The notes under the pieces: model-generated | Databases searched by the model: none | Told to the model about the DNA's origin: nothing | Seen by the model: the letters and a program-made list of their open reading frames with translations, nothing else | Translations under genes and position numbers: made by a program | Virus record (IMG/VR): IMGVR_UViG_3300042465_000552 | Coordinates: 1-24,479 of that record | Source of the DNA: a virus | Direction: 5' to 3' (one strand) | DNA length: 24,479 bases | Shown: positions 8,262 through 23,079 of the stretch, piece after piece | How the letters are laid out: every line of letters begins with the position of its first letter | Position numbering within the stretch: the stretch's first letter is position 1

Positions 8262-8915
8262 ATGAAAAAAGTCTTAATAGCTTGCGAAGAAAGCCAAGCA
8301 GTTACCATAGCATTTAGGAGATTAGGCTTTGAAGCATTTAGTTGTGATATATTACCATCTACTGGCGGACATCCTGAATGGCATTATCAGCAAGATGTAT
8401 TTGAAGTAATAAATAAAGGTTGGGATTTAATGATTGCGCATCCTCCTTGCACTTATCTTTCAGTTAGTGGTGCAAAGCACCTTTACAATAAAGATGGCAG
8501 TCCTAACGAAGAAAGATATAATAATCAAAGACAGGCTTTACTTTTTGTTAAACAATTAATGGATGCCAATATTAAGTATATTGCAATTGAAAATCCAATT
8601 AGCGTAATATCGACTAAATTATGCAAGCCTGACCAAATAGTTCAACCTTATTGGTTTGGAGATTCAGCAAGCAAAAGCACTTGTTTATGGCTTAAAAATC
8701 TTCCTAAATTAGAGCCAACTGATATGGTCAACAAAGGACATTTTAAAGAATGGATTGGTAAGAATGGTAAAACAAAAAAACAACCGATGTGGTATTACGA
8801 AGCATTGACAAAAGCAAAAACTACTGAAGAACGTAGGGGATTAAGAAGTAAAACATTTCAAGGCATAGCAGATGCGATGGCTAATCAATGGGGAAACTAT
8901 ATTTTAAACCAATAA
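8262..8915 (+). CDS. C5-cytosine-methylase-like protein
   Basis: A 217-residue protein with the core of a cytosine-C5 DNA methyltransferase: LIACEESQAVTIAFRRLGFE (motif I region, 5-24), FSCDI (26-30), the catalytic PPC at 61-63 in HPPCTYLSVSG with Cys63, and ENP at 110-112 (motif VI). It is shorter than a full Dcm-type enzyme and lacks an obvious separate target-recognition domain; the C-terminal part has SKSTCLWLKNLP and FQGIADAMANQWG, the equivalent of the final motifs. Phages carry this compact version widely. It could methylate phage DNA to resist restriction or be part of another pyrimidine modification; the sequence cannot decide. No restriction enzyme is next to it. Confidence 0.8.
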   Translation: MKKVLIACEESQAVTIAFRRLGFEAFSCDILPSTGGHPEWHYQQDVFEVINKGWDLMIAHPPCTYLSVSGAKHLYNKDGSPNEERYNNQRQALLFVKQLMDANIKYIAIENPISVISTKLCKPDQIVQPYWFGDSASKSTCLWLKNLPKLEPTDMVNKGHFKEWIGKNGKTKKQPMWYYEALTKAKTTEERRGLRSKTFQGIADAMANQWGNYILNQ

Positions 8916-9226: not shown

Positions 9227-9577
9227 ATGAGAAACGAACACGAGCATAAGCTCCAGGTTGCAATTTGTAAATGGTTGGATTGGACACAAGACTTTTACTA
9301 TTATGCGATACCAAACGGAGGCGCAAGGCATAGGCTGGTTGCAATTAAATTAAAAATGGAAGGAGCAAAGGCTGGAGTTGCTGATATGTTTTGGATGGTT
9401 TCTAATAAGCGATGGAAAGGATTGTTTGTCGAGGTTAAGATTGACAAGGGAACTCAGCAACCAAATCAAAAAGCATTTGAATTGATAGCCATTAATCACG
9501 GGTATTATTATGCGATTGTAAGGTCGATTGAAGACTGCGAGAGTTTGATTCGGAGATTTAGATTAGATGAGATTTGA
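9227..9577 (+). CDS. VRR-NUC domain nuclease
   Basis: A 116-residue stand-alone VRR-NUC protein (PF08774, PD-(D/E)XK superfamily). The family pattern is complete: an N-terminal Glu/Gln helix (HEHKLQVAICKWLDW), YAIPNGGARHRLVAIKLKME with the conserved Asn-Gly-Gly and Arg, GAKAGVADMFWM with the catalytic Asp, FVEVKID with the Glu-x-Lys, and QQPNQKAFELI with the conserved Gln. Phage VRR-NUC proteins are structure-specific or Holliday-junction-type nucleases in replication or recombination. The gene stands in the replication module, followed by the small protein and DUF3310. Start at ATG 9227 gives a full-length family member. Confidence 0.88.
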   Translation: MRNEHEHKLQVAICKWLDWTQDFYYYAIPNGGARHRLVAIKLKMEGAKAGVADMFWMVSNKRWKGLFVEVKIDKGTQQPNQKAFELIAINHGYYYAIVRSIEDCESLIRRFRLDEI

Positions 9578-9786
9578 AGAATAATCATTTAAATGCAATC
9601 AAATGGATTACAATGAGATTACAACGACCTACGATTCAAGTAGTTATCGATTGCGCAACCTATCTCGATTTGAATTATAGTCTTGAAATAAATTTAAATC
9701 GAATCAAAATTGAAAACGGTTCTTCATATCCAGCATACCGACAAACAAAAAAAATTAAGGATTATTTGGAATTGCACGGATTATAA
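9574..9786 (+). CDS. Small unknown protein, start uncertain
   Basis: The frame runs from a TTG at 9574 (overlapping the VRR-NUC TGA) to TAA 9784-9786, 70 residues. The first in-frame ATG is at 9613 and gives a 57-residue product beginning MRLQRPTIQVVIDCATYLDL. The start cannot be settled from sequence: TTG would give tight coupling, ATG the more usual codon. The protein has a helix-rich sequence with a basic end (KKIKDYLELHGL) and could be a small DNA-binding protein, but no HTH signature is certain. Confidence 0.5.
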   Translation: MKNNHLNAIKWITMRLQRPTIQVVIDCATYLDLNYSLEINLNRIKIENGSSYPAYRQTKKIKDYLELHGL

Positions 9787-9800
9787 TGTAAACTTTGCAA

Positions 9801-10031
9801 ATGGAAAAGATTAATTATCAAGGAGTTATCAAAGAAGAGGTCAATCATCCTGAGCATTATCAGGGTAATGGCATTGAGGTTATTGACATAATAGATGCTT
9901 TCGACCTTAATTTTAATCTTGGCAATTCAATTAAATACATACTGCGAGCCGACAAGAAAGGATTTAAAAAGAAAGATTTAGATAAAGCGGTTTGGTATTT
10001 GAATCGGGAACTTGAAAAGTGGAAAGGTTAA
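9801..10031 (+). CDS. DUF3310 protein (annotated as nucleotide kinase in some phages)
   Basis: A 76-residue protein matching DUF3310 (PF11753): NHPEHYQGNGIEVIDIIDAF, NLGNSIKYILRADKKG and DLDKAVWYLNRELEKW are the three family blocks. This family is widespread in tailed phages; it is often labelled nucleotide kinase by resemblance to T7 gp1.7, which phosphorylates dTMP/dGMP, but no P-loop is visible and activity is unproven here. The start is ATG 9801; an in-frame TTG at 9795 would add two residues only. It is the last gene before terminator T2. Confidence 0.85.
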   Translation: MEKINYQGVIKEEVNHPEHYQGNGIEVIDIIDAFDLNFNLGNSIKYILRADKKGFKKKDLDKAVWYLNRELEKWKG

Positions 10032-10037
10032 TTTGGG

Positions 10038-10090
10038 AAGCCATTTCGGTAGGAATTATCGAGGTGGCTTTTATCGTTTATTTTATTTTT
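10038..10090 (+). terminator. Intrinsic terminator T2 after the DUF3310 gene
   Basis: AAGCCATTTCG (10038-10048) pairs with CGAGGTGGCTT (10060-10070), 11 pairs including two G-T wobbles, around an 11-base loop GTAGGAATTAT. It is followed by a T-rich tract TTATCGTTTATTTTATTTTT. It separates the replication operon from the sigma-like gene. The hairpin shares the TCGGT...TATCG-GGTGG pattern with terminator T1. Confidence 0.75.
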
Positions 10091-10091
10091 G
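10084..10091 (+). promoter_or_regulatory. Possible -7 element ahead of the sigma-like gene
   Basis: TATTTTTG at 10084-10091 matches TAnnTTTG and lies 22 bases before the ATG at 10114, the same spacing as the promoter ahead of 4113. The -33 position falls in the terminator stem and has no TTTG, so the upstream element is missing. A promoter is needed here because T2 closes the previous unit. Low confidence. Confidence 0.4.
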
Positions 10092-10113
10092 AAATAATCA
10101 GAAAATCAAAGGA

Positions 10114-10626
10114 ATGACCAGGTCGCAAATCATTGAGGAACTTTATAATTCAAAGGAGATTAAGCAAGCCTTGATGAAAATGCACCCAGCAAATTTAAGG
10201 GAAGAACTTAAGCAAGAAATGTTCGTTAATCTTTGCTCAATAACCGAAGACAAATTTTGGTCTATATACAATAACAACGGAAGCAACGGATTAAAGTTTT
10301 GGCTTGTTAGATGTATGCTTAATATGATTTATAGTACTGGAATGAATCAACCATTCTTTAGGCATTTCAGAGCCAAGTACGAATCAATTGATGGGTTAGA
10401 AGAGTTAGTGCATATTGAGGATGAATCAAAGGATTACAAAGAAAAGCTATTTAATCGAGTGGAGGTAGCAAGAAAAGAGTTATCATGGTACGAAGATATG
10501 CTACTCGATACTTATGTCGAATTGAATTTTAATCAAACGGAGATTTCGAGAAAGACTGGCATTCCGTATATGTCCATAGTCAAAACGATTTCAAACATTA
10601 AAAAGAAAATAAGGGATGAAGCCTGA
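10114..10626 (+). CDS. Sigma-70-like transcription factor
   Basis: A 170-residue protein with the plan of a small sigma-like factor: an N-terminal helical region with FWSIYNNNGSNGLKFWLVRCMLN (a sigma region-2-like block), a linker with SIDGLEELVHIEDES, and a clear C-terminal helix-turn-helix at about 139-166 (FNQTEISRKTGIPYMSIVKT then ISNIKKKIR), the region-4-like part that reads promoter DNA. Phage-coded factors of this kind switch host RNA polymerase to middle or late promoters. It is the first gene after terminator T2, upstream of the packaging and structural genes, which fits such a switch. The region-2 assignment is less sure than the HTH. Confidence 0.75.
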   Translation: MTRSQIIEELYNSKEIKQALMKMHPANLREELKQEMFVNLCSITEDKFWSIYNNNGSNGLKFWLVRCMLNMIYSTGMNQPFFRHFRAKYESIDGLEELVHIEDESKDYKEKLFNRVEVARKELSWYEDMLLDTYVELNFNQTEISRKTGIPYMSIVKTISNIKKKIRDEA

Positions 10627-10798
10627 CGAGAAAGCTAAAAGTTTGTTGATTAATGCCCTTTATTTTTGTGGCAATAAAGCATTTGCTTTCGAATTAGCTT
10701 TGTACTTTTGTTCATTAATTCTTGAGCAGAAATTAAAGGCGGATGACCGTGCTTACTGGAGTGTAGTGCAAGATGAAATTTACCAAACAAACAAATGA
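10616..10798 (+). CDS. Small unknown protein
   Basis: A 60-residue helical protein, MKPDEKAKSLLINALYFCGN then a Phe/Leu/Ala-rich stretch (AFAFELALYFCSLILEQKLK). It has two Cys and looks like a short soluble helical hairpin rather than a membrane protein. It overlaps the sigma-like gene by 11 bases and the next gene by 4 (AATGA). The N-terminus (KPDEKAKSLL) resembles that of the protein at 11019 (TPKEKAEELV), so the two may be distant paralogues. Function unknown. Confidence 0.6.
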   Translation: MKPDEKAKSLLINALYFCGNKAFAFELALYFCSLILEQKLKADDRAYWSVVQDEIYQTNK

Positions 10799-11022
10799 TA
10801 ACAATAATAGCAGCCGTTTCTTTTGCAGTCTTTTTTACAATGACTAATTTATATCAGTCATTCGGACTAAACTTTAAGCCGTTTAGTTGTACTCCTTGTC
10901 TAAGTACCTGGAGCGCTATCGTTTTAATTGTCGTACCTATGCAGTTTCAAGAGTGGATTGCAATCGTGTTTAGTTCGGGTATATTAGGAGCGGTCATTTT
11001 TAGATTGATTAACAAACTATGA
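10795..11022 (+). CDS. Small membrane protein with CxxC motif
   Basis: A 75-residue protein of two to three membrane segments: about 1-22 (MITIIAAVSFAVFFTMTNLY), about 38-55 (STWSAIVLIVVPM) and about 55-72 (EWIAIVFSSGILGAVIFRL). Between the first two lies KPFSCTPCLSTW, with a Cys-x-x-Cys pair near the membrane surface. I recall small proteins with a KPF.C..CLS.W pattern in Bacteroidota phages and prophages, without known function; metal binding or a redox/disulfide role is possible. Both ends overlap neighbours by 4 bases (ATGA), so it is part of the operon. Confidence 0.65.
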   Translation: MITIIAAVSFAVFFTMTNLYQSFGLNFKPFSCTPCLSTWSAIVLIVVPMQFQEWIAIVFSSGILGAVIFRLINKL

Positions 11023-11219
11023 CACCAAAAGAAAAAGCAGAAGAGTTAGTAGATAAATTTCTTTATATTGAAAATGAATACAAAGAATATTTAGATTTTA
11101 AACAAGCCAAAGAATGTGCATTAATTGCAGTAGATGAGATAATTTTTATTTTAGCTGAAGATATAAATCCATTAGTTAATTATTGGTTTAAAGTTAAATT
11201 AGAAATTGAAAATTTATGA
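11019..11219 (+). CDS. Small helical protein, unknown
   Basis: A 66-residue acidic helical protein: MTPKEKAEELVDKFLYIENE, then KQAKECALIAVDEIIFILAE. The TPKEKAEELVDKF...AKECALIAVDEI pattern is, from memory, common among short proteins of Bacteroidota phages and is not assigned a function. It overlaps both neighbours by 4 bases. The base composition is slightly more AT-rich than neighbours. Confidence 0.65.
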   Translation: MTPKEKAEELVDKFLYIENEYKEYLDFKQAKECALIAVDEIIFILAEDINPLVNYWFKVKLEIENL

Positions 11220-11500
11220 CCGAGCAAGAGATAGCATTTATAGAAGCTAATATTATAAACTTTGAGGCGGTTGCTTTAGGGTTTACCAAAAACATTGACC
11301 GAGAAGTTCTTGAAGAATATGCGAGTTTATATCGTAAATATGTTAATAAAGATTTTAACTTCAATTCATGGTGTGGCAGTTGTGTCTTTGATATGCTTAA
11401 AAGATTGTCTGCACATTACGAAGGATTAAAGTATATTGCAAAACTCAACCAACCAAAACCAAACGATGTCCAAACTAAGAATCTGCGCAGTCGGAAGTAG
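11216..11500 (+). CDS. Small unknown protein with WCGSC block
   Basis: A 94-residue protein with FNSWCGSCVFDMLKRLSAHY near the middle and a basic C-terminal tail ending TKNLRSRK. The WCGxC block resembles a thioredoxin-like Cys pair only superficially, because no thioredoxin fold pattern surrounds it. Proteins with a WCGxCVFDML block seem familiar from Bacteroidota phages, with unknown function. It overlaps the glycosyltransferase gene by 35 bases. Confidence 0.6.
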   Translation: MTEQEIAFIEANIINFEAVALGFTKNIDREVLEEYASLYRKYVNKDFNFNSWCGSCVFDMLKRLSAHYEGLKYIAKLNQPKPNDVQTKNLRSRK

Positions 11501-12485
11501 ACATTCAGGAGTCACTTACCATCGATTAGCATTGCCATTATCAGTAATGAAAAAGGAGTATTGTATTATCACAGATACAATGACCGAAGAGATGCTGATT
11601 GAGAAGGCGATAAACGTGGTCGTAGTCAATCGTTTTTGCGAATTAATACCATTGCCCGATTTATTAAAATGGAAGGCTAAGATTGGCTTTAAATTGGTTG
11701 TCGATATTGATGACTACTGGGAGTTATTTTCTCAGCATTTATCTGCGCCAACATATCGGTCTTTAGGAGTCACTCAAGTAATTAAGAATTATATTAAAGT
11801 GGCGGATGTTGTAACGACAACTCACAACCGATTACGGCTTGAGATTATTAAGATAAATCCTAACTGCTTTATTCTGCCGAATGCTTTGCCATTTGACCGT
11901 GACCAATTTACTGCGGTAAGAAATGTAAACGAATTTGTTAACATTGCTCACACGGGTAGCATTACTCACTTTCCTGACATGAAGCAGTTAAAGAATCCGA
12001 TTAGAGAATTAGCCAAGTCTAAATCATTTAAGGAGTCAACACGGATGCTTCTTTGCGGTTGGAATAAAGCAAATGAGTTTCATTGGAAGCAGATGGGCGA
12101 TTGGTTTACGGCTGGAGAAAGATTAAACCACAAGATACTTGAATCGATGCCCGTAGATTTATATATGAATTTCTACCTGGAGGCTGACATATTACTTGCT
12201 CCATTGCTTGACAATAAATTTAACCGATTAAAATCAAATCTAAAGGCATTAGAGGCTGGCGCTAAACGGATTCCCTTGATGGCAATTAAACGAGCGCCTT
12301 ACGATGACATTCCAACGGTATGTTGGGTTGATAATTGGGAGAGAGATATTAAAAGAATGGTATTCTCAAAGCAAATGAGAACGGATTTTGGCGAGTCAAA
12401 TGCTGAATATGTCCGAGAGCATTATGACCTATTTAAAATTAATGAAGTGCGTTTAGCTATTTATACTAAGTTATTAGAATCATAA
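11466..12485 (+). CDS. Glycosyltransferase, GT4-like (GT-B fold)
   Basis: A 339-residue protein with the look of a GT-B glycosyltransferase. The N-terminal domain starts KLRICAVGSRHSGVTYHRLA, with VVDIDDYWEL (about 80-90) and VVTTTHNRLRLEI marking a Rossmann-like half. The C-terminal domain has AHTGSITHFPDMKQL, LLCGWNKANEF, and DILLAPLLDNKFNRLKSNLK followed by ALEAGAKRIP, the usual E-x7-E-like donor-binding region (here an Asn/Lys/Glu version). I chose ATG 11466 because the 10 residues before it derive from a TTG start inside the upstream gene. It transfers a sugar from a nucleotide sugar to an unknown acceptor. The next two genes suggest a small glycan or modification pathway. Confidence 0.75.
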   Translation: MSKLRICAVGSRHSGVTYHRLALPLSVMKKEYCIITDTMTEEMLIEKAINVVVVNRFCELIPLPDLLKWKAKIGFKLVVDIDDYWELFSQHLSAPTYRSLGVTQVIKNYIKVADVVTTTHNRLRLEIIKINPNCFILPNALPFDRDQFTAVRNVNEFVNIAHTGSITHFPDMKQLKNPIRELAKSKSFKESTRMLLCGWNKANEFHWKQMGDWFTAGERLNHKILESMPVDLYMNFYLEADILLAPLLDNKFNRLKSNLKALEAGAKRIPLMAIKRAPYDDIPTVCWVDNWERDIKRMVFSKQMRTDFGESNAEYVREHYDLFKINEVRLAIYTKLLES

Positions 12486-12498
12486 TTAAATTTTAGAT

Positions 12499-13146
12499 AT
12501 GAATAATTTTTATCATAGTGGCGCTACTGGAGATGTCATTTTTTCTTTGCCTACAATTCAAGCATTAGGCGGAGGCACATTGCATTTAGTTCTACCTGAT
12601 AATTTATATGATACAATTTTGCCATTACTTGAGGCGCAAGATTATATTTTTGAAGTAAGGAAAGGGAGAGAATTTATTCCGCCAATTTATGATTTAGATT
12701 TATTCCGTAAAAATAGAGATTTGCATTTAACTCATTTGGTCGATTTGCATTTACAAACGTTCCAAATTAAAGGGGATATTTGGAAACAAGGATGGTTAAA
12801 AGTTGAGCCGATAAAATCCAATAATAGTTTTATTAATATTACTTCAAGATATGTCAATCCAAATACGGATTGGGTCAAAGAAATTAACTTTTTAAAAGAC
12901 AATTCAGATAACGTTTATTTTATTGGCTATGAATCTGAATATGAGCCGTATAAACATTTGATTGAGAGGTATGAAATTAAGGATTATTTAGAACTTGCGC
13001 AATTACAATTAGGTGCTAAATATGTTAGTGGGAATCAATCAAGTTTTATGGCAGTTGCTCAAGGGATTGGTCGAGATTATAGATTAAGTCAAGCAATTGG
13101 ACATACTAATAACAATCAATTTTTACCAAAAGAAACAATAATATGA
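12499..13146 (+). CDS. GT9-like (heptosyltransferase-type) glycosyltransferase, short
   Basis: A 215-residue protein that starts NNFYHSGATGDVIFSLPTIQ, the hallmark N-terminus of GT9/ADP-heptose transferase-like enzymes (…GxxGDxxxxLP). The later part has NVYFIGYESEYEPYKHLIER and LAQLQLGAKYVSGNQSSFMA, the donor-binding-like G-x-D/N-S region. It is shorter than cellular GT9 enzymes (over 300 residues), so it is a compact phage version. It could add a sugar to the product of the GT4-like enzyme, or to a phage protein or DNA base. It is separated from the GT4-like gene by 13 bases, and its stop overlaps the next ATG. Confidence 0.7.
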   Translation: MNNFYHSGATGDVIFSLPTIQALGGGTLHLVLPDNLYDTILPLLEAQDYIFEVRKGREFIPPIYDLDLFRKNRDLHLTHLVDLHLQTFQIKGDIWKQGWLKVEPIKSNNSFINITSRYVNPNTDWVKEINFLKDNSDNVYFIGYESEYEPYKHLIERYEIKDYLELAQLQLGAKYVSGNQSSFMAVAQGIGRDYRLSQAIGHTNNNQFLPKETII

Positions 13147-13679
13147 GCCGTGTAACCGACAAAGAATTTTTTGATATTGAAATCAAGGCTGGAATAACTC
13201 CCGAAAATCCTGATTATTATAACTTGATGGATGCAACGGCAAACATAATTTCTGAGTATGCAAGAACGGTAATAGAGATTGGCGCTGGCATGGGTACACT
13301 TGGCGAATGCTTAGAAAAAAGAAGGATAAATTATTATGGGATTGAGCCTAATAAATACCATCAAGAATATGCTTATAAAAGAGGAGTTATATTACACGAA
13401 ATTACCGACTATCCCGACCATTGTCAAATGGTTGTTAGCATTGAAGTAATGGAGCATTTAACGGATGAGCAAATAAAAGATTATATGAACAATATTAATT
13501 GTCAATATTTCTTATTTTCTTCAACTCCTTATTTTACAACTCCTGAGCAAGATGAGGCTTGGGGTCATATCAATATTAAGTCCGAAGAAAAATGGATTGA
13601 GTTCTTTGCTCAATTCGGATTTAGCTTAGAAAAGAAATTAACACTACCGACCGAGTGGTCATTACTATTTAAAAAATGA
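13143..13679 (+). CDS. SAM-dependent methyltransferase (class I)
   Basis: A 178-residue class I methyltransferase. Motif I is VIEIGAGMGTLGECLEKRRI (about 41-60), followed by the acidic residue in YYGIEPNK (motif II) and VVSIEVMEHLTDEQI (about 98-112, motif post-I/III, of the UbiE/COQ5-like kind). It has no DNA-methylase signature (no PPY/PPC), so substrates such as sugar hydroxyls, lipids or small molecules are more likely. Adjacent glycosyltransferases suggest it methylates a glycan. It overlaps both neighbours by 4 bases (ATGA). Confidence 0.8.
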   Translation: MSRVTDKEFFDIEIKAGITPENPDYYNLMDATANIISEYARTVIEIGAGMGTLGECLEKRRINYYGIEPNKYHQEYAYKRGVILHEITDYPDHCQMVVSIEVMEHLTDEQIKDYMNNINCQYFLFSSTPYFTTPEQDEAWGHINIKSEEKWIEFFAQFGFSLEKKLTLPTEWSLLFKK

Positions 13680-14845
13680 ATATTACAACAACCAAACTGA
13701 CCGACATAAAGTCGAATCCAAACAATCCAAGAATTATCAAGGATGACAAATTTAAAAAGTTAGTAGCATCGATTAAGGAATTTCCTCAAATGCTATCTTT
13801 ACGACCTATTGTCGTTAATGATGATATGATTGTACTTGGAGGTAATATGAGATTAAAGGCTTGCAAGGAAGCTGGACTAAAAGAAGTGCCAGTTATAAAA
13901 GCAAGTGACTTAAACGAAGAACAACAAAAAGCATTTATAATTAAGGACAATGTTGGATACGGAGAATGGGATTGGGATATGCTTGCCAACGAATGGGATG
14001 CCGAAGAATTAGTTGAGTGGGGATTAGATATACCTAATTTTGATATTAAAGATTTAGGAACGGCTGAGGAAGATGATTTTGATGTGCCTGATGGAGGAAT
14101 AGAAACAAATATTGTAATTGGAGATTTATTTGAAATAGGAGAGCATCGTTTGCTTTGTGGAGATTCAACGGATAGTGATGCAGTTGCTAAATTAATGAAT
14201 GGTCAAAAGGCTGACATGGTATTTACCGACCCTCCTTATGGAGTTAGTTATCAATCAAATATGAGAACTAAATCTGATAAATTTGAAGTACTTAAAAATG
14301 ATGATGTTTTTATAACTGAATGGATTAATAATTTACCATTATTTTCAAATGGTTTTGTTTTTGTTTGGACATCTTGGAAAGTATTAAAAGATTGGATTGA
14401 AATATGTTCACAAATTGGAGAATTATCAAATTTAATTGTTTGGGATAAAGGTGGTGGTGGTATTGGAGATTTAAAAAAAACATTTTCAACTGATTTTGAA
14501 ATTGCATTAGTATATCATAGGGGAGCTGAAATTAAAGGAAAAAGATTAGGTAGTGTTTGGAGTGTTGGAAAAGATGGGGCAAATAAATATTTACATCCAA
14601 CACAAAAACCAGTTGGATTAGCTGCAATGGCAATTGAAAATATTTTAACCATTAATAAAATTTGTTTAGACTTTTTTCTTGGCTCAGGCTCAACAATGGT
14701 AGCATCACATCAGCTTAATCGTAAATGCTATGGAATGGAACTTGACCCTAAATATTGCCAGGTAATTGTTAACCGAATGATAAAGTTAGACTCAACATTA
14801 ACAATTAAAAGAAACGGAGAGATATGGCAAACGAACAAAATTTAG
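13676..14845 (+). CDS. ParB-like domain fused to beta-class DNA methyltransferase
   Basis: A 389-residue fusion. Residues 1-130 form a ParB/Spo0J-like N-terminal domain (LTDIKSNPNNPRIIKDDKFK, VLGGNMRLKACKEAGLKEVP with the GGxxR box at 55-59). After a short acidic linker, residues about 145-389 form a DNA methyltransferase: DPPYG at 185-189 (motif IV) and DFFLGSGSTMVA at about 332-343 (motif I), followed by CYGMELDPKYCQVIVNRM. Motif IV before motif I is the permuted beta-class order, and DPPY implies an N6-adenine or N4-cytosine methylase. Phage ParB-methylase fusions commonly sit just before terminase, as here. The middle (between the motifs) contains the target-recognition region and is CpG-free. 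Confidence 0.9.
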   Translation: MNITTTKLTDIKSNPNNPRIIKDDKFKKLVASIKEFPQMLSLRPIVVNDDMIVLGGNMRLKACKEAGLKEVPVIKASDLNEEQQKAFIIKDNVGYGEWDWDMLANEWDAEELVEWGLDIPNFDIKDLGTAEEDDFDVPDGGIETNIVIGDLFEIGEHRLLCGDSTDSDAVAKLMNGQKADMVFTDPPYGVSYQSNMRTKSDKFEVLKNDDVFITEWINNLPLFSNGFVFVWTSWKVLKDWIEICSQIGELSNLIVWDKGGGGIGDLKKTFSTDFEIALVYHRGAEIKGKRLGSVWSVGKDGANKYLHPTQKPVGLAAMAIENILTINKICLDFFLGSGSTMVASHQLNRKCYGMELDPKYCQVIVNRMIKLDSTLTIKRNGEIWQTNKI

Positions 14846-15234
14846 TAAGTTTTAAGAAAGGTCAATCAGGCAATCCAAATGGGCGACCAAAGAAATATGT
14901 TACGTTGTTAAAAGAATCAGGTTATAATATGACCGAGATTGGAATAACAATTCGTAAAATGCTTGCTATGAATATTGACCAACTTAAAGAGATATTCGAT
15001 AATCCCGAAAGTTCAATATTAGAAAAGACAATTGCTGGAGCAATGAATAAATCTTTAAAGAATGGCTCTTTGTATTCAATAGAAACTTTATTAAGTCGAG
15101 TATTTGGAAAGCCAAAAGAATCGGCTGACATAAAACAAGATACTGAAATAACCATAAAATTTGCCAATGGAGATTATCCTACCGACTCCACACGAGGCGC
15201 AGAAAAAAGTATTACAGAGCAAGGCGAGGTTTAG
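14824..15234 (+). CDS. terS: Terminase small subunit-like protein (DUF5681-like)
   Basis: A 136-residue protein. The N-terminus carries FKKGQSGNPNGRPKK (10-24), the DUF5681 signature, a basic DNA-binding-like entry segment found on small terminase-like proteins. The middle is helical (IGITIRKMLAMNIDQLKEIF, LEKTIAGAMNKSLKNGSLYS), and the end is polar (KQDTEITIKFANGDYPTDST). Small terminases bind pac/cos DNA and hand it to the large subunit. The call rests on the signature and the place directly ahead of the large subunit, which it overlaps by 68 bases. It also overlaps the end of the methyltransferase gene. Confidence 0.8.
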   Translation: MANEQNLVSFKKGQSGNPNGRPKKYVTLLKESGYNMTEIGITIRKMLAMNIDQLKEIFDNPESSILEKTIAGAMNKSLKNGSLYSIETLLSRVFGKPKESADIKQDTEITIKFANGDYPTDSTRGAEKSITEQGEV

Positions 15235-16333
15235 AGTGCTTATGTGCGGGCGAAGATTTGGCAAGTCATTGATTAGCCAGGTCATCACTTGCGTGGAGGC
15301 ATTACAAGGTAAGTCAGTTGCTTATATTACTCCGACCTACAAATTAGCCAAAGTCTTTTTTGATGATATTGCTTTAATACTTCCTCCTGAAGTAGCAACT
15401 TCTAACATATCAGATTTAACTTTTAAATTGGCTACGGGTGGAGTCATTCGATTTTATACGGGCGAAAGATTAGACAATCTTCGAGGTATGCGATTCCATT
15501 ATGTTATTATCGATGAGGCTTCATATATTCCCGATTTAGAGAACGGTTGGAATAATGCTATAAGACCTACCTTAACCGATTATAAAGGCAAGGCGCTATT
15601 TCTATCGACTCCGAGAGGCAAGAATTATTTCTATTCTTTATATTTAAAAGGATTAGAAGCAAACGGAGAATGGGAATCGTTTAAATATTCGACTTACGAT
15701 AATCCTTATATTGCAAATTCTGAAGTCGATTCAATTAAGCAATCAGCAATTCCCGTAGTATTCGAACAAGAGTACATGGCTAACCCAGCTGAGAACGCTG
15801 CGAATCCATTTGGAAGTGAGGCAATTCGTAAGTGTACATCGGACATTTCTACCAATATTGTTAAATGTTACGGAGTCGATTTGGCAAAGTACTCAGATTG
15901 GACTGTAATTATCGGTTTAGATAATAGTGGCAATGTAGCTTATTATGACCGATTTCAGAAAGATTGGGCAAGCACTCAGAACATAATCCGCAATTTACCA
16001 AAAGCACCGATGTTAATTGATAGCACTGGAGTAGGCGACCCGATAGTAGAGCAATTACAACGGGAAGGCATGGACATAGAAGGATTTAAATTTACAAGCC
16101 AAAGCAAGCAAGAATTAATGTTAGGTCTTCAAGTTGCAATCCATCAGGAACGAGTACACTATCCTGAAGGTATGATTAAAAATGAGTTAGAGGTTTTTGA
16201 GTACCAATATACATCTCACGGAGTTAAGTATTCAGCACCTACGGGATTTACGGATGACTGCGTATGCGCATTAGCATTAGCGTGGCGCAAGTTTGATTTT
16301 AAGTCAGGAACGGGCAGATACAACTTTGTTTAA
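15167..16333 (+). CDS. terL: Terminase large subunit
   Basis: A 388-residue packaging motor/nuclease. Walker A is GRRFGKS (28-34), Walker B VIIDEA (113-118), and the coupling motif STPRG (147-151). The C-terminal nuclease has its RuvC-like acidic residues in CYGVDLAKYSDWTV (Asp238), LIDSTGVGD (Asp285) and FTDDCVCALALAW (Asp363/Asp364). Both halves are intact, so the protein should be functional. It is somewhat shorter than many TerL proteins (about 450-500) but is complete. The start is ATG 15167; the two residues before it come from a TTG at 15161. Its start lies inside the small subunit gene, which gives coupled translation. Confidence 0.95.
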   Translation: MEIILPTPHEAQKKVLQSKARFRVLMCGRRFGKSLISQVITCVEALQGKSVAYITPTYKLAKVFFDDIALILPPEVATSNISDLTFKLATGGVIRFYTGERLDNLRGMRFHYVIIDEASYIPDLENGWNNAIRPTLTDYKGKALFLSTPRGKNYFYSLYLKGLEANGEWESFKYSTYDNPYIANSEVDSIKQSAIPVVFEQEYMANPAENAANPFGSEAIRKCTSDISTNIVKCYGVDLAKYSDWTVIIGLDNSGNVAYYDRFQKDWASTQNIIRNLPKAPMLIDSTGVGDPIVEQLQREGMDIEGFKFTSQSKQELMLGLQVAIHQERVHYPEGMIKNELEVFEYQYTSHGVKYSAPTGFTDDCVCALALAWRKFDFKSGTGRYNFV

Positions 16334-21117: not shown

Positions 21118-23079
21118 ATGGCTCAAAAAGAAAATGTAATAATTACCGTTGAAGCAAAGACTGGAGATTCCGCTAAAGATGTAGGGAATTTAAAAGACAA
21201 AATTGACGAAGCTGGTGAAAGTGCCGAGAAAGCTGGTAAAAAAGCAGAAGGAAGTAAAGGAGCATTTAGTTCTTTAGGTCAAGCAGTTAAGACCCTTGCA
21301 AGCGCATCTATTATATTAAAGGTATTTGAGAAGTTTGGAGAAATACTTTCAGGCAATTCAAAGATTACAAATATTTTAGCAGTAGCAACTGAATCCCTTT
21401 CGATTATAGTTAGTGACTTTGTTGGTTTTATTGTTGGTAATACTGATAAGGTAGTTAATTTCTTTAAAGATGCTTTTGAAAGACCTGGAGAATTTGTAAA
21501 GAATTTAGGTAAAAATATCCAAGATAATTTAATTGAAAGATTTAATTCTCTTTTAGAAGTTAGTGGATTTCTTGCCTCAGCATTTAAAAACTTATTTGCT
21601 GGGGAATTTGAGAAAGCATTAACTAACGTAAAAGATGCGGCAAAAGAATCGTTAGATGTAGTAACGGGTATTGATGATACTGGAGATAAATTAGTTGAGG
21701 CTGGTAAAAAGGTTATTGATTATACTAAAAATGTAGTAAAGGCTGCAAAGGCAAACGTTGACTTACAAAATAATGCAGAATTAGCCGCAGCGAGATTAGG
21801 TGGTTTAATTGAAAAATTTGATAGGGAAGCCGAAAAGCAAAGGCAAGTTAGAGATGATACTACTAAATCGGTAGCCGATAGAATTAAGGCTAATGAAGAA
21901 TTAGGGAAAGTTTTAGAAAAATCACAAGAAGCACAATTAGCACAAGCTGGATTGTTAATTCAAGCGGCAGATGCTAACTTAAAAAAAGATGCGGGGTCAA
22001 TAGCATTTCAAAAAGCAAAAATTGAAGCACAAAATCAATATGCGGCAGTTTTAGCACAAGTTGAAGGATTTAGGTCAGAGCAATTAATTAATCAAACAGG
22101 ATTATTATTAGAGCAACAAAATCTTGATAAAACAAGAATACAAAATCAAAGTCTTTTATTGATTGCCCAAAAGAAAGCAAATGCAGATTTAATTGTTGAT
22201 GAATTAGAAAAGGCTCAACAAAAAAGAAAGATTTTAGATGAGGAGGCAGAAGTTGAATTAAAAAGATTACAAGATAACATTAACATAGCTGGTTTAGGAA
22301 CTCAAGCAAGAGTTGATGCTGAAATTGAATTTGCAAATAAGAAACAAGAAATTGAGGTCAATAAATTAATTGCTGATAATGAAATAAGAACTATTAAATA
22401 TAATAGGGAATTAGAAGATTTACAATTTATTCAAGATAATGAACTTGCTAAATTTGATGCTAAACGTAAAGCAGTTGATGATGAATTAGAATTATTAAAA
22501 AAGCAATTAAAAGATAAGTTAATTGTTGAAAGAGATTACAATAAAAGAGTAAAAGAATTAAGTCTTCAAAGAAAGGAAATTGATAGAGCCGAGCGTGTAC
22601 AAAAAGAAGAAAACGCTAATGCAATCGGTGGAATATTAGGCGCATTATCAGGTTTAGCAGAACAAGGTACGGCATTACAAAAAGGATTAGCTTTAGGACA
22701 AGTTGCTATTGATACGGCAACTTCTATTTCTTCTTTAATGGCAGTTTCAGAAGCAAACCCATTAAATACATTAACTTTTGGAGGTGCTGGTATTGCTCAA
22801 TATGCGGCAGGTATTATAAGAATACTTGCAAACGTTGCTCAAGCTAAAAGTATTTTAAGTGCAGTTCCAGGTGGAGGCTCTGCGCCAAGTACAAGTATTT
22901 CAGTACCTACGGCAGAAGCGCCAGTAACTCCAAGTTTTACTCCTAATGCACCAACTGCTTTAGACCAAACTTCAATTAATGCCATAGGAAATATTAATAC
23001 ACGGGCATACGTTGTCGAGTCAGATATTACGGGAAGTCAAAAAAGAATACGGAGAATCGAAAACTCTGCAAGAATTTAA
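21118..23079 (+). CDS. Tape measure protein
   Basis: A 653-residue protein, the longest helical one here. The N-terminal 60 residues (AKTGDSAKDVGNLKDKIDEA, GESAEKAGKKAEGSKGAF) are followed by hydrophobic helices (about 60-105, ILAVATESLSIIVSDFVGFI), long Lys/Glu/Gln/Ala coiled-coil sequence (about 190-495), a second hydrophobic stretch (about 500-580, NAIGGILGALSGLAEQGTAL, ILANVAQAKSIL), and a Ser/Pro/Thr-rich C-terminal tail. This arrangement is typical of tape measures, which set tail length and pass through the membrane at infection. By the usual rule of about 0.15 nm per residue the tail would be near 100 nm, an estimate only. No lytic-enzyme domain is visible. Confidence 0.8.
   Translation: MAQKENVIITVEAKTGDSAKDVGNLKDKIDEAGESAEKAGKKAEGSKGAFSSLGQAVKTLASASIILKVFEKFGEILSGNSKITNILAVATESLSIIVSDFVGFIVGNTDKVVNFFKDAFERPGEFVKNLGKNIQDNLIERFNSLLEVSGFLASAFKNLFAGEFEKALTNVKDAAKESLDVVTGIDDTGDKLVEAGKKVIDYTKNVVKAAKANVDLQNNAELAAARLGGLIEKFDREAEKQRQVRDDTTKSVADRIKANEELGKVLEKSQEAQLAQAGLLIQAADANLKKDAGSIAFQKAKIEAQNQYAAVLAQVEGFRSEQLINQTGLLLEQQNLDKTRIQNQSLLLIAQKKANADLIVDELEKAQQKRKILDEEAEVELKRLQDNINIAGLGTQARVDAEIEFANKKQEIEVNKLIADNEIRTIKYNRELEDLQFIQDNELAKFDAKRKAVDDELELLKKQLKDKLIVERDYNKRVKELSLQRKEIDRAERVQKEENANAIGGILGALSGLAEQGTALQKGLALGQVAIDTATSISSLMAVSEANPLNTLTFGGAGIAQYAAGIIRILANVAQAKSILSAVPGGGSAPSTSISVPTAEAPVTPSFTPNAPTALDQTSINAIGNINTRAYVVESDITGSQKRIRRIENSARI

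Follow-up and report, generated by a model that had tools for sequence, protein, structure and literature searches.

Closest described systems

Sections of PMC6536676, citing Iyer et al. (2013), describe the ParB-Tls locus, in which the space from a ParB-like gene to the gene for the large terminase is occupied by DNA-modifying genes, methylases included, and ParB may be fused to the methylase; the same sections report 36 m6A/m4C methylases that are fused to ParB and located upstream of terminase in Paracoccus phages, and cite a proposal in which the modification apparatus is guided by ParB as packaging proceeds. Passages of Bellas et al. (2020, PMC7468147) describe near-identical cryoconite phages that differ by swapped DNA methylases in the packaging module, with an acetyltransferase in the same region of one variant and glycosyltransferases (GTs) among the variable genes. 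In mycobacteriophages, capsid and tail tube subunits are glycosylated by the phage (Freeman et al., 2023, as related in parts of PMC12619734 and PMC10955285). Here we analyze a 24,479-base virus record (IMG/VR IMGVR_UViG_3300042465_000552, positions 1 to 24,479; hereafter the window), in which a glycosyltransferase (GT1), a short putative second glycosyltransferase (GT2), an S-adenosylmethionine (SAM) methyltransferase (MT) and a ParB-DNA methylase fusion are encoded in one orientation upstream of terminase. These four genes are best read as two systems, a glycan block and a DNA slot; we consider it an even call that the pair consists of a constant glycosyltransferase core with exchanged decorating enzymes and, next to it, a DNA modification slot of the ParB-Tls type.

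As an instance of the published ParB-Tls locus, the DNA slot is not new. The more unusual part is the constant glycosyltransferase with exchangeable decorators, for which, beside terminase, no description was found in the open-licence literature searched. Indeed, the exchange of the methylase middle in near-identical phages, the link to a terminase allele and the glycosyltransferase core are features seen here that the ParB-Tls sections of PMC6536676 do not describe, and the passages of PMC7468147 on cryoconite phages likewise describe no constant glycosyltransferase core with exchanged decorators. Compared with mycobacteriophage virion glycosylation, both hosts and partner enzymes differ, and the window system is known from genes alone. 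Relatives of GT1 at about 32% identity occur in Stephanstirmvirinae (the phAPEC8 group), in PQ433349 in tandem with other glycosyltransferases; that cluster lies near primase and polymerase genes, whereas GT1 of the window lies near terminase. Phapecoctaviruses encode a dTDP-rhamnose pathway, according to passages of PMC7552041. Psychrobacter phage Y8A resembles the present clade, as portrayed in parts of PMC10434257, in having a ParB-domain gene shortly upstream of its terminase genes as well as a Mom gene, although its Mom lies elsewhere in the genome.

A constant glycosyltransferase core with exchanged partner enzymes

Two genes upstream of terminase are constant among the relatives. GT1 (11466-12485, + strand, as are all genes of the locus) and orf94 (11216-11500), whose small, conserved product contains a WCGSC stretch, are present in 53/53 loci, a sample reaching down to 64% TerL (large terminase) identity. 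Of at least 597 matches to TerL the 80 best were taken, and the 53 are those whose sequence reaches 4.5 kb or more upstream of it; the other 27 were excluded from presence counts. A sequence-only reading of this DNA, which had not mentioned orf94, had regarded the genes from GT1 to the methylase as an accessory block. Within this sample, GT1 and orf94 are not merely accessory; their partners are exchanged, GT2 occurring in 11/53 relatives and MT in 37/53.

At least one methyltransferase, second glycosyltransferase or hexapeptide transferase lies beside GT1 in 51/53 relatives. Specifically, besides the 37 with the window-type MT, four carry another methyltransferase family (phrog_32762 type in two, Methyltransf_24 in two), 22 carry any second glycosyltransferase, nine a hexapeptide transferase with a GT-A enzyme and two a PLOD-type glycosyltransferase, classes that overlap in these counts, as one glycosyltransferase may match two queries. 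The hexapeptide transferase with GT-A is the prevailing set among relatives of 64-65% TerL identity. Locus L265 has a set of its own (a GT2-family enzyme, 8e-13; a PLOD-type glycosyltransferase, 2.4e-23; Methyltransf_24, 1.3e-12), and in the distant contig L174 a TylF-type O-methyltransferase (PF05711, 1.1e-20) has GT1, orf94 and a further short GT9-like protein as its neighbours. An HAD-like protein or its N-terminal part was counted in 41/53 relatives, a count that takes in the shared N-terminal part; no HAD-like protein lies between GT1 and GT2 in the window. This N-terminal part is of a 'KCSNGKWRIG' type, as in the HAD-like proteins of L031 (2266-2697), L173 (8995-9417) and L278 (6141-6563), and in some relatives it is joined to a different C-terminal part.

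These gene contents favour a block that would make a decorated, often methylated glycan. The methylated sugar, a product already suggested from the sequence alone, is the best reading of the glycosyltransferase and methyltransferase genes, because the methyltransferase is swapped for unrelated ones, one of which belongs to a sugar-methylating family (TylF, in L174), and a decorating enzyme accompanies GT1 in nearly every relative. In the mechanism that we propose, GT1, with orf94 as its constant partner, would take a sugar from a nucleotide-sugar of the host and attach it to an acceptor that stays the same, and exchangeable decorators would then extend, methylate or acylate that sugar. GT2 and MT would do so in this phage; in its relatives, other glycosyltransferases, methyltransferases or hexapeptide acyltransferases would take their place, and the glycans would accordingly differ between related phages. 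We think it rather likely that GT1, orf94 and the decorators act in one pathway. If so, a fixed place in these genomes of about 33 kb is reserved for sugar chemistry while its product varies, and selection on phage glycans would then extend beyond a few model phages.

Several points weigh against this reading. Co-location alone is no proof of a shared pathway, and two loci (L235 and L079) carry GT1 yet none of the decorators searched for. The 53 loci, moreover, come from the best-scoring TerL matches, and a single population may be represented by several contigs. It is also conceivable that the terminase side is a recombination hotspot that gathers accessory genes, the adjacency of glycosyltransferases and methyltransferase having no functional meaning. 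Passages of PMC7468147 do report such hotspots within the packaging modules of phages, and the interval here also takes up gene clusters 6, 18 and 20 (by eye HNH-like, ATPase-like and GIY-YIG-like) and the PAPS-reductase-like cluster 13. Against it, a glycan-type enzyme or methyltransferase lies beside GT1 in 51/53 relatives, and one methyltransferase type is substituted for another; we regard this explanation as improbable.

The genes of the proposed glycan block

All four genes are open frames where they had been placed from the sequence, followed by genes for the small (TerS) and large terminase subunits. Their coupling by short overlaps was confirmed for GT2/MT (4 nt), MT/ParB (4 nt) and ParB/TerS (22 nt), but GT1 and GT2 are separated by a 13-nt gap; upstream, orf94 overlaps GT1 by 35 nt. 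Median pairwise ratios of non-synonymous to synonymous divergence (dN/dS) are low for orf94 (0.063), GT1 (0.074, 32 sequences), GT2 (0.132, 15 sequences) and MT (0.144, 28 sequences); these four, judged from their substitution patterns, are therefore maintained genes under purifying selection.

GT1, whose start we take as the ATG at 11466 (a TTG at 11436 would give a longer frame), had been called GT4-like. It has no match in Pfam but corresponds to the phrog_7162 glycosyltransferase (6.5e-58), and its AlphaFold2 (AF2) model is a confident GT-B structure (pLDDT 83.7). Foldseek places GT4-type enzymes nearest (7qsg, E 4.6e-11, TMq 0.70), and the highest-scoring match in VIA is 6kih (Z 27.3 over 317 residues, root-mean-square deviation 3.0). 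On this model GT1 has the GT-B fold, with GT4-type transferases as its nearest relatives. The donor domain of GT4 enzymes carries the pattern EX7E. In GT1, E263 is invariant in the 15 aligned sequences, but the first Glu of the pattern is replaced by Leu or Met, eight residues before E263, in 15/15, a point against a GT4 enzyme in the strict sense; GT1 is thus named GT4-like and not GT4. Profiles built from PDB sequences gave no relative for either GT1 or GT2, only weak matches to unrelated proteins.

GT2 (12499-13146) had been described as GT9-like and unusually short. The second part holds, as it has 215 aa against 313-323 aa in four longer relatives translated from bacterial assemblies. Because the 12 aligned phage copies (picked for near-full length) span the same 215 columns, GT2 appears from the alignment to be a compact form rather than a local truncation. 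Residues 21-100 are less alike among copies (0.81-0.87) than residues 101-200 (0.94-0.99). Kinship to GT9 is weak, which counts against the functional assignment made here: GT2 has no Pfam match and does not reach the PF01075 cut-off, another family search gave a chance-level match only, a longer relative scores 0.04 and 13.7 bits against PF01075 (cut-off 22), and hhalign against four E. coli heptosyltransferase-type proteins returned a probability of 11% (E 0.003). Identification by structure was dropped as evidence, the model being poor (pLDDT 48; Foldseek best E 1.9). A GT2 profile did reach longer proteins, alignable with GT2, in 5/395 genomes from the class of a related Chitinophagaceae metagenome-assembled genome (MAG); a second scan with it yielded 43 loci, none additional to the earlier set.

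MT (13143-13679) was correctly recognized as a SAM methyltransferase: it matches Methyltransf_23 (PF13489, 1.2e-7, 32 bits, cut-off 27), and a PDB profile search gave various methyltransferases, so that by sequence it has a class I SAM domain. Its substrate would be a glycan. The match to the NanM-type putative sugar O-methyltransferase (0.001, 18.6 bits) lies well under the cut-off of 44, and TylF is matched by the gene of L174 only, not by MT of the window. GT2 is linked to one class of MT alleles, MT identity being at least 84% in 13/13 loci with GT2 against 4/14 without (Fisher p 1.5e-4), a test that treats the loci as independent, for which the 84% cut was set after the values had been seen and in which adjacency alone could produce the link. 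Among 50,697 phage records, tblastn at 1e-3 matched neither GT2 nor MT; orf94 has no match there at 0.01 and matches no Pfam or PHROG family.

A ParB-Tls-type slot beside terminase

The fourth gene (13676-14845), as the sequence-only reading had recognized, joins a ParB_N domain (29.9 bits, cut-off 26.3) to an N6/N4 DNA methylase (N6_N4_Mtase, 96.3 bits, over its cut-off), and terminase follows directly, the arrangement of a ParB-Tls locus. Its parts differ sharply in conservation. Among 11 same-lineage alleles (55 pairs), the ParB-like N-terminal part, residues 1-120 (13676-14035), is constant at 97.0% mean identity, whereas the methylase middle, from DPPY to LGSGS (14228-14677), holding the catalytic and presumed target recognition parts, averages 33% (minimum 17%) and falls into five types at a 50% cut. 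The C-terminal end (14678-14845), which runs into the TerS start, is again well conserved (mean identity 86%, minimum 73%). In all, 17 distinct full-length alleles were read; left out of the pairs were L120 and L104, in which the C-terminal motif was missed, and L144, L151, L106 and L096, which belong to other lineages.

Elsewhere in the clade an unfused ParB is followed by Mom (L025, 1.2e-33), by TAGT (L022, 9.6e-18) or by an ATPase-GNAT protein (L032), and in L047 by a further methyltransferase-like gene and then a C5 methylase (4.5e-44); the Mom, TAGT and C5 methylase slots belong to relatives with the same ParB. ParB occurs in 13/53 relatives, three of them with Mom, one with the ATPase-GNAT protein and one with the C5 methylase. 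The slot of this clade is thus a ParB-like domain fused in the window to an N6/N4 methylase with an exchanged middle, with Mom, TAGT or a C5 methylase coming after ParB in other relatives; going by these families, it very probably protects phage DNA from host restriction.

The presence of ParB follows the terminase. It was found in 15/15 loci with terminase allele A and in 1/16 others (Fisher 5.7e-8), a pattern spotted by eye before testing and a test that treats related loci as independent and leaves out loci whose TerL match was short or whose GT1 fell below 85%. Across these 31 loci the terminase allele showed no link to GT2 (p 1), to the MT allele (p 0.72; four loci without MT scored low) or to the gene after TerL (p 1; 24 loci). 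The exception is L028 (TerL 72%). Its DNA slot (9544-13134) may be a further modification module, in which pieces of ParB occur together with a second ParB-like gene, a GNAT protein and a PAPS-reductase-like protein. In the window, TerS (14824-15234), named by position and matching DUF5681 (PF18932, 5.4e-9), accompanies the ParB slot and terminase allele A; TerL (15188-16333, its frame open from a TTG at 15161) exceeds the cut-offs of Terminase_6N and 6C and matches phrog_2 (9.6e-42). The 22-nt ParB/TerS overlap may hold the block together, and the slot may be functionally linked with packaging.

The sequence-only reading had also placed the DNA methylase in the sugar pathway, and this we reject: ParB is present in 13/53 relatives against 53/53 for GT1, it tracks the terminase allele rather than GT2 or MT, and its methylase middle is exchanged. 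Near-identical phages of one terminase allele that combine an unchanged ParB part with varying modifiers amount to a natural experiment, which renders the published ParB-packaging-modification idea testable. At 8262-8915 the window encodes a second putative DNA methyltransferase (phrog_757, 2.9e-65; no Pfam match).

Candidate acceptors of the sugar

Among acceptors, a virion protein is our first guess, a host surface glycan comes next and DNA last. That GT1 is so constant points towards an acceptor made by the phage, and we tentatively favour a virion protein, at somewhat less than an even chance. A fuller proposal, which we advance as unlikely to hold in all its parts, is a 'glycotype' system in which GT1 and orf94 would place the first sugar on an unchanging virion protein, with exchangeable decorators varying the coat between close relatives, beside a ParB-Tls slot that would vary the DNA mark with the terminase allele. 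Were this so, two exchangeable 'identity' modifications, one of the coat and one of the genome, would lie side by side.

The neighbourhoods of the longer GT2 relatives point away from the virion and favour a host-surface glycan as substrate: exporter-like and glycosyltransferase-like genes (named by eye) stand beside them in 3/4 bacterial-assembly contigs, the fourth (L206) looking different and perhaps phage. GT1, GT2 and MT might accordingly modify a lipopolysaccharide-like surface glycan on infected cells and so prevent superinfection or keep progeny from binding debris, with exchange tracking host glycan diversity. Polymorphic glycosyltransferase clusters of cyanophages are interpreted in this way in sections of PMC7824862, as is an RfaB-type phage glycosyltransferase in sections of PMC7326821. 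Against a host-surface target, the presence of GT1 in 53/53 relatives down to 64% TerL identity seems steadier than expected of a target tuned to hosts, and no flippase-like or polytopic frame was seen in the window, by eye only; we hold it doubtful, if less so than the remaining candidate.

That candidate is DNA itself, the glycosyltransferases attaching a (methylated) sugar to phage DNA bases together with the neighbouring DNA slot. T4 alpha-glucosyltransferase (AGT; 1y8z) does appear among the Foldseek matches of GT1 (rank 30, TMq 0.66); its absence from the 50 VIA matches listed for GT1 carries no weight. The Stephanstirmvirinae relatives of GT1, near primase and polymerase genes, adjoin proteins with a weak resemblance to TAGT (0.0012 and 0.00089, neither reaching the cut-off), and a TAGT-type DNA glycosyltransferase directly follows ParB in L022 (3245-4817), L077 (3360-4932) and L173 (9778-11104). 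Sugar on DNA is nevertheless less likely because a thymidylate-synthase/hydroxymethylase-family gene (PF00303) was found in only 1/37 viral records, many of them fragments and the window not included, with the control matched in 9/14. Tet_JBP was found in 0/40 records, again without the window, but no control matched either. Furthermore, GT1 occurs with or without ParB, and Vequintavirinae and relatives, among which Phapecoctavirus is counted, are exceptionally restriction-susceptible according to parts of PMC8594841. Taken with these points, DNA glycosylation is the least probable of the readings weighed here. The single thymidylate-synthase-family gene in the 37 viral records lies in the L048 contig (G023, 2210-2944), and there is none in the two short viral contigs among the three ParB-TAGT loci.

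Hosts, genome extent and other features of the window

TerL searches against 50,697 phage records gave 71 matches at E 1e-20, all below 60% identity, the 25 listed at or below 31.7%; no close cultured relative was seen among them. The hosts of this uncultured phage are probably Bacteroidota, as suggested by two related contigs titled as Chitinophagaceae and Mucilaginibacter MAGs, in which binning errors are possible; a GT1 scan of genome contigs confirmed 2/69 stretches. Two relatives of 33,439 and 32,786 bases share most genes of the window and continue into capsid- and portal-like frames (by eye), so that the window probably covers some three quarters of a genome. Neither PF00303 nor TAGT was found in these two relatives, whose other frames unmatched in the window were not all searched for families.

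Distant from the locus, a frame at 1186-1932 exceeds the cut-off for NUMOD3 and falls just short of the one for GIY-YIG. Its start nearly matches residues of a lysozyme-like frame (by eye) at the same place in L175 (381-836), and an M15-like peptidase frame (by eye) follows at 1907-2326; a lysis gene may thus have been exchanged at a homing-type gene across 1186-2326. Towards the other end of the window, a tape-measure-like frame (by eye; 21118-23079) is 95% identical in L180 and 35% identical in L176.

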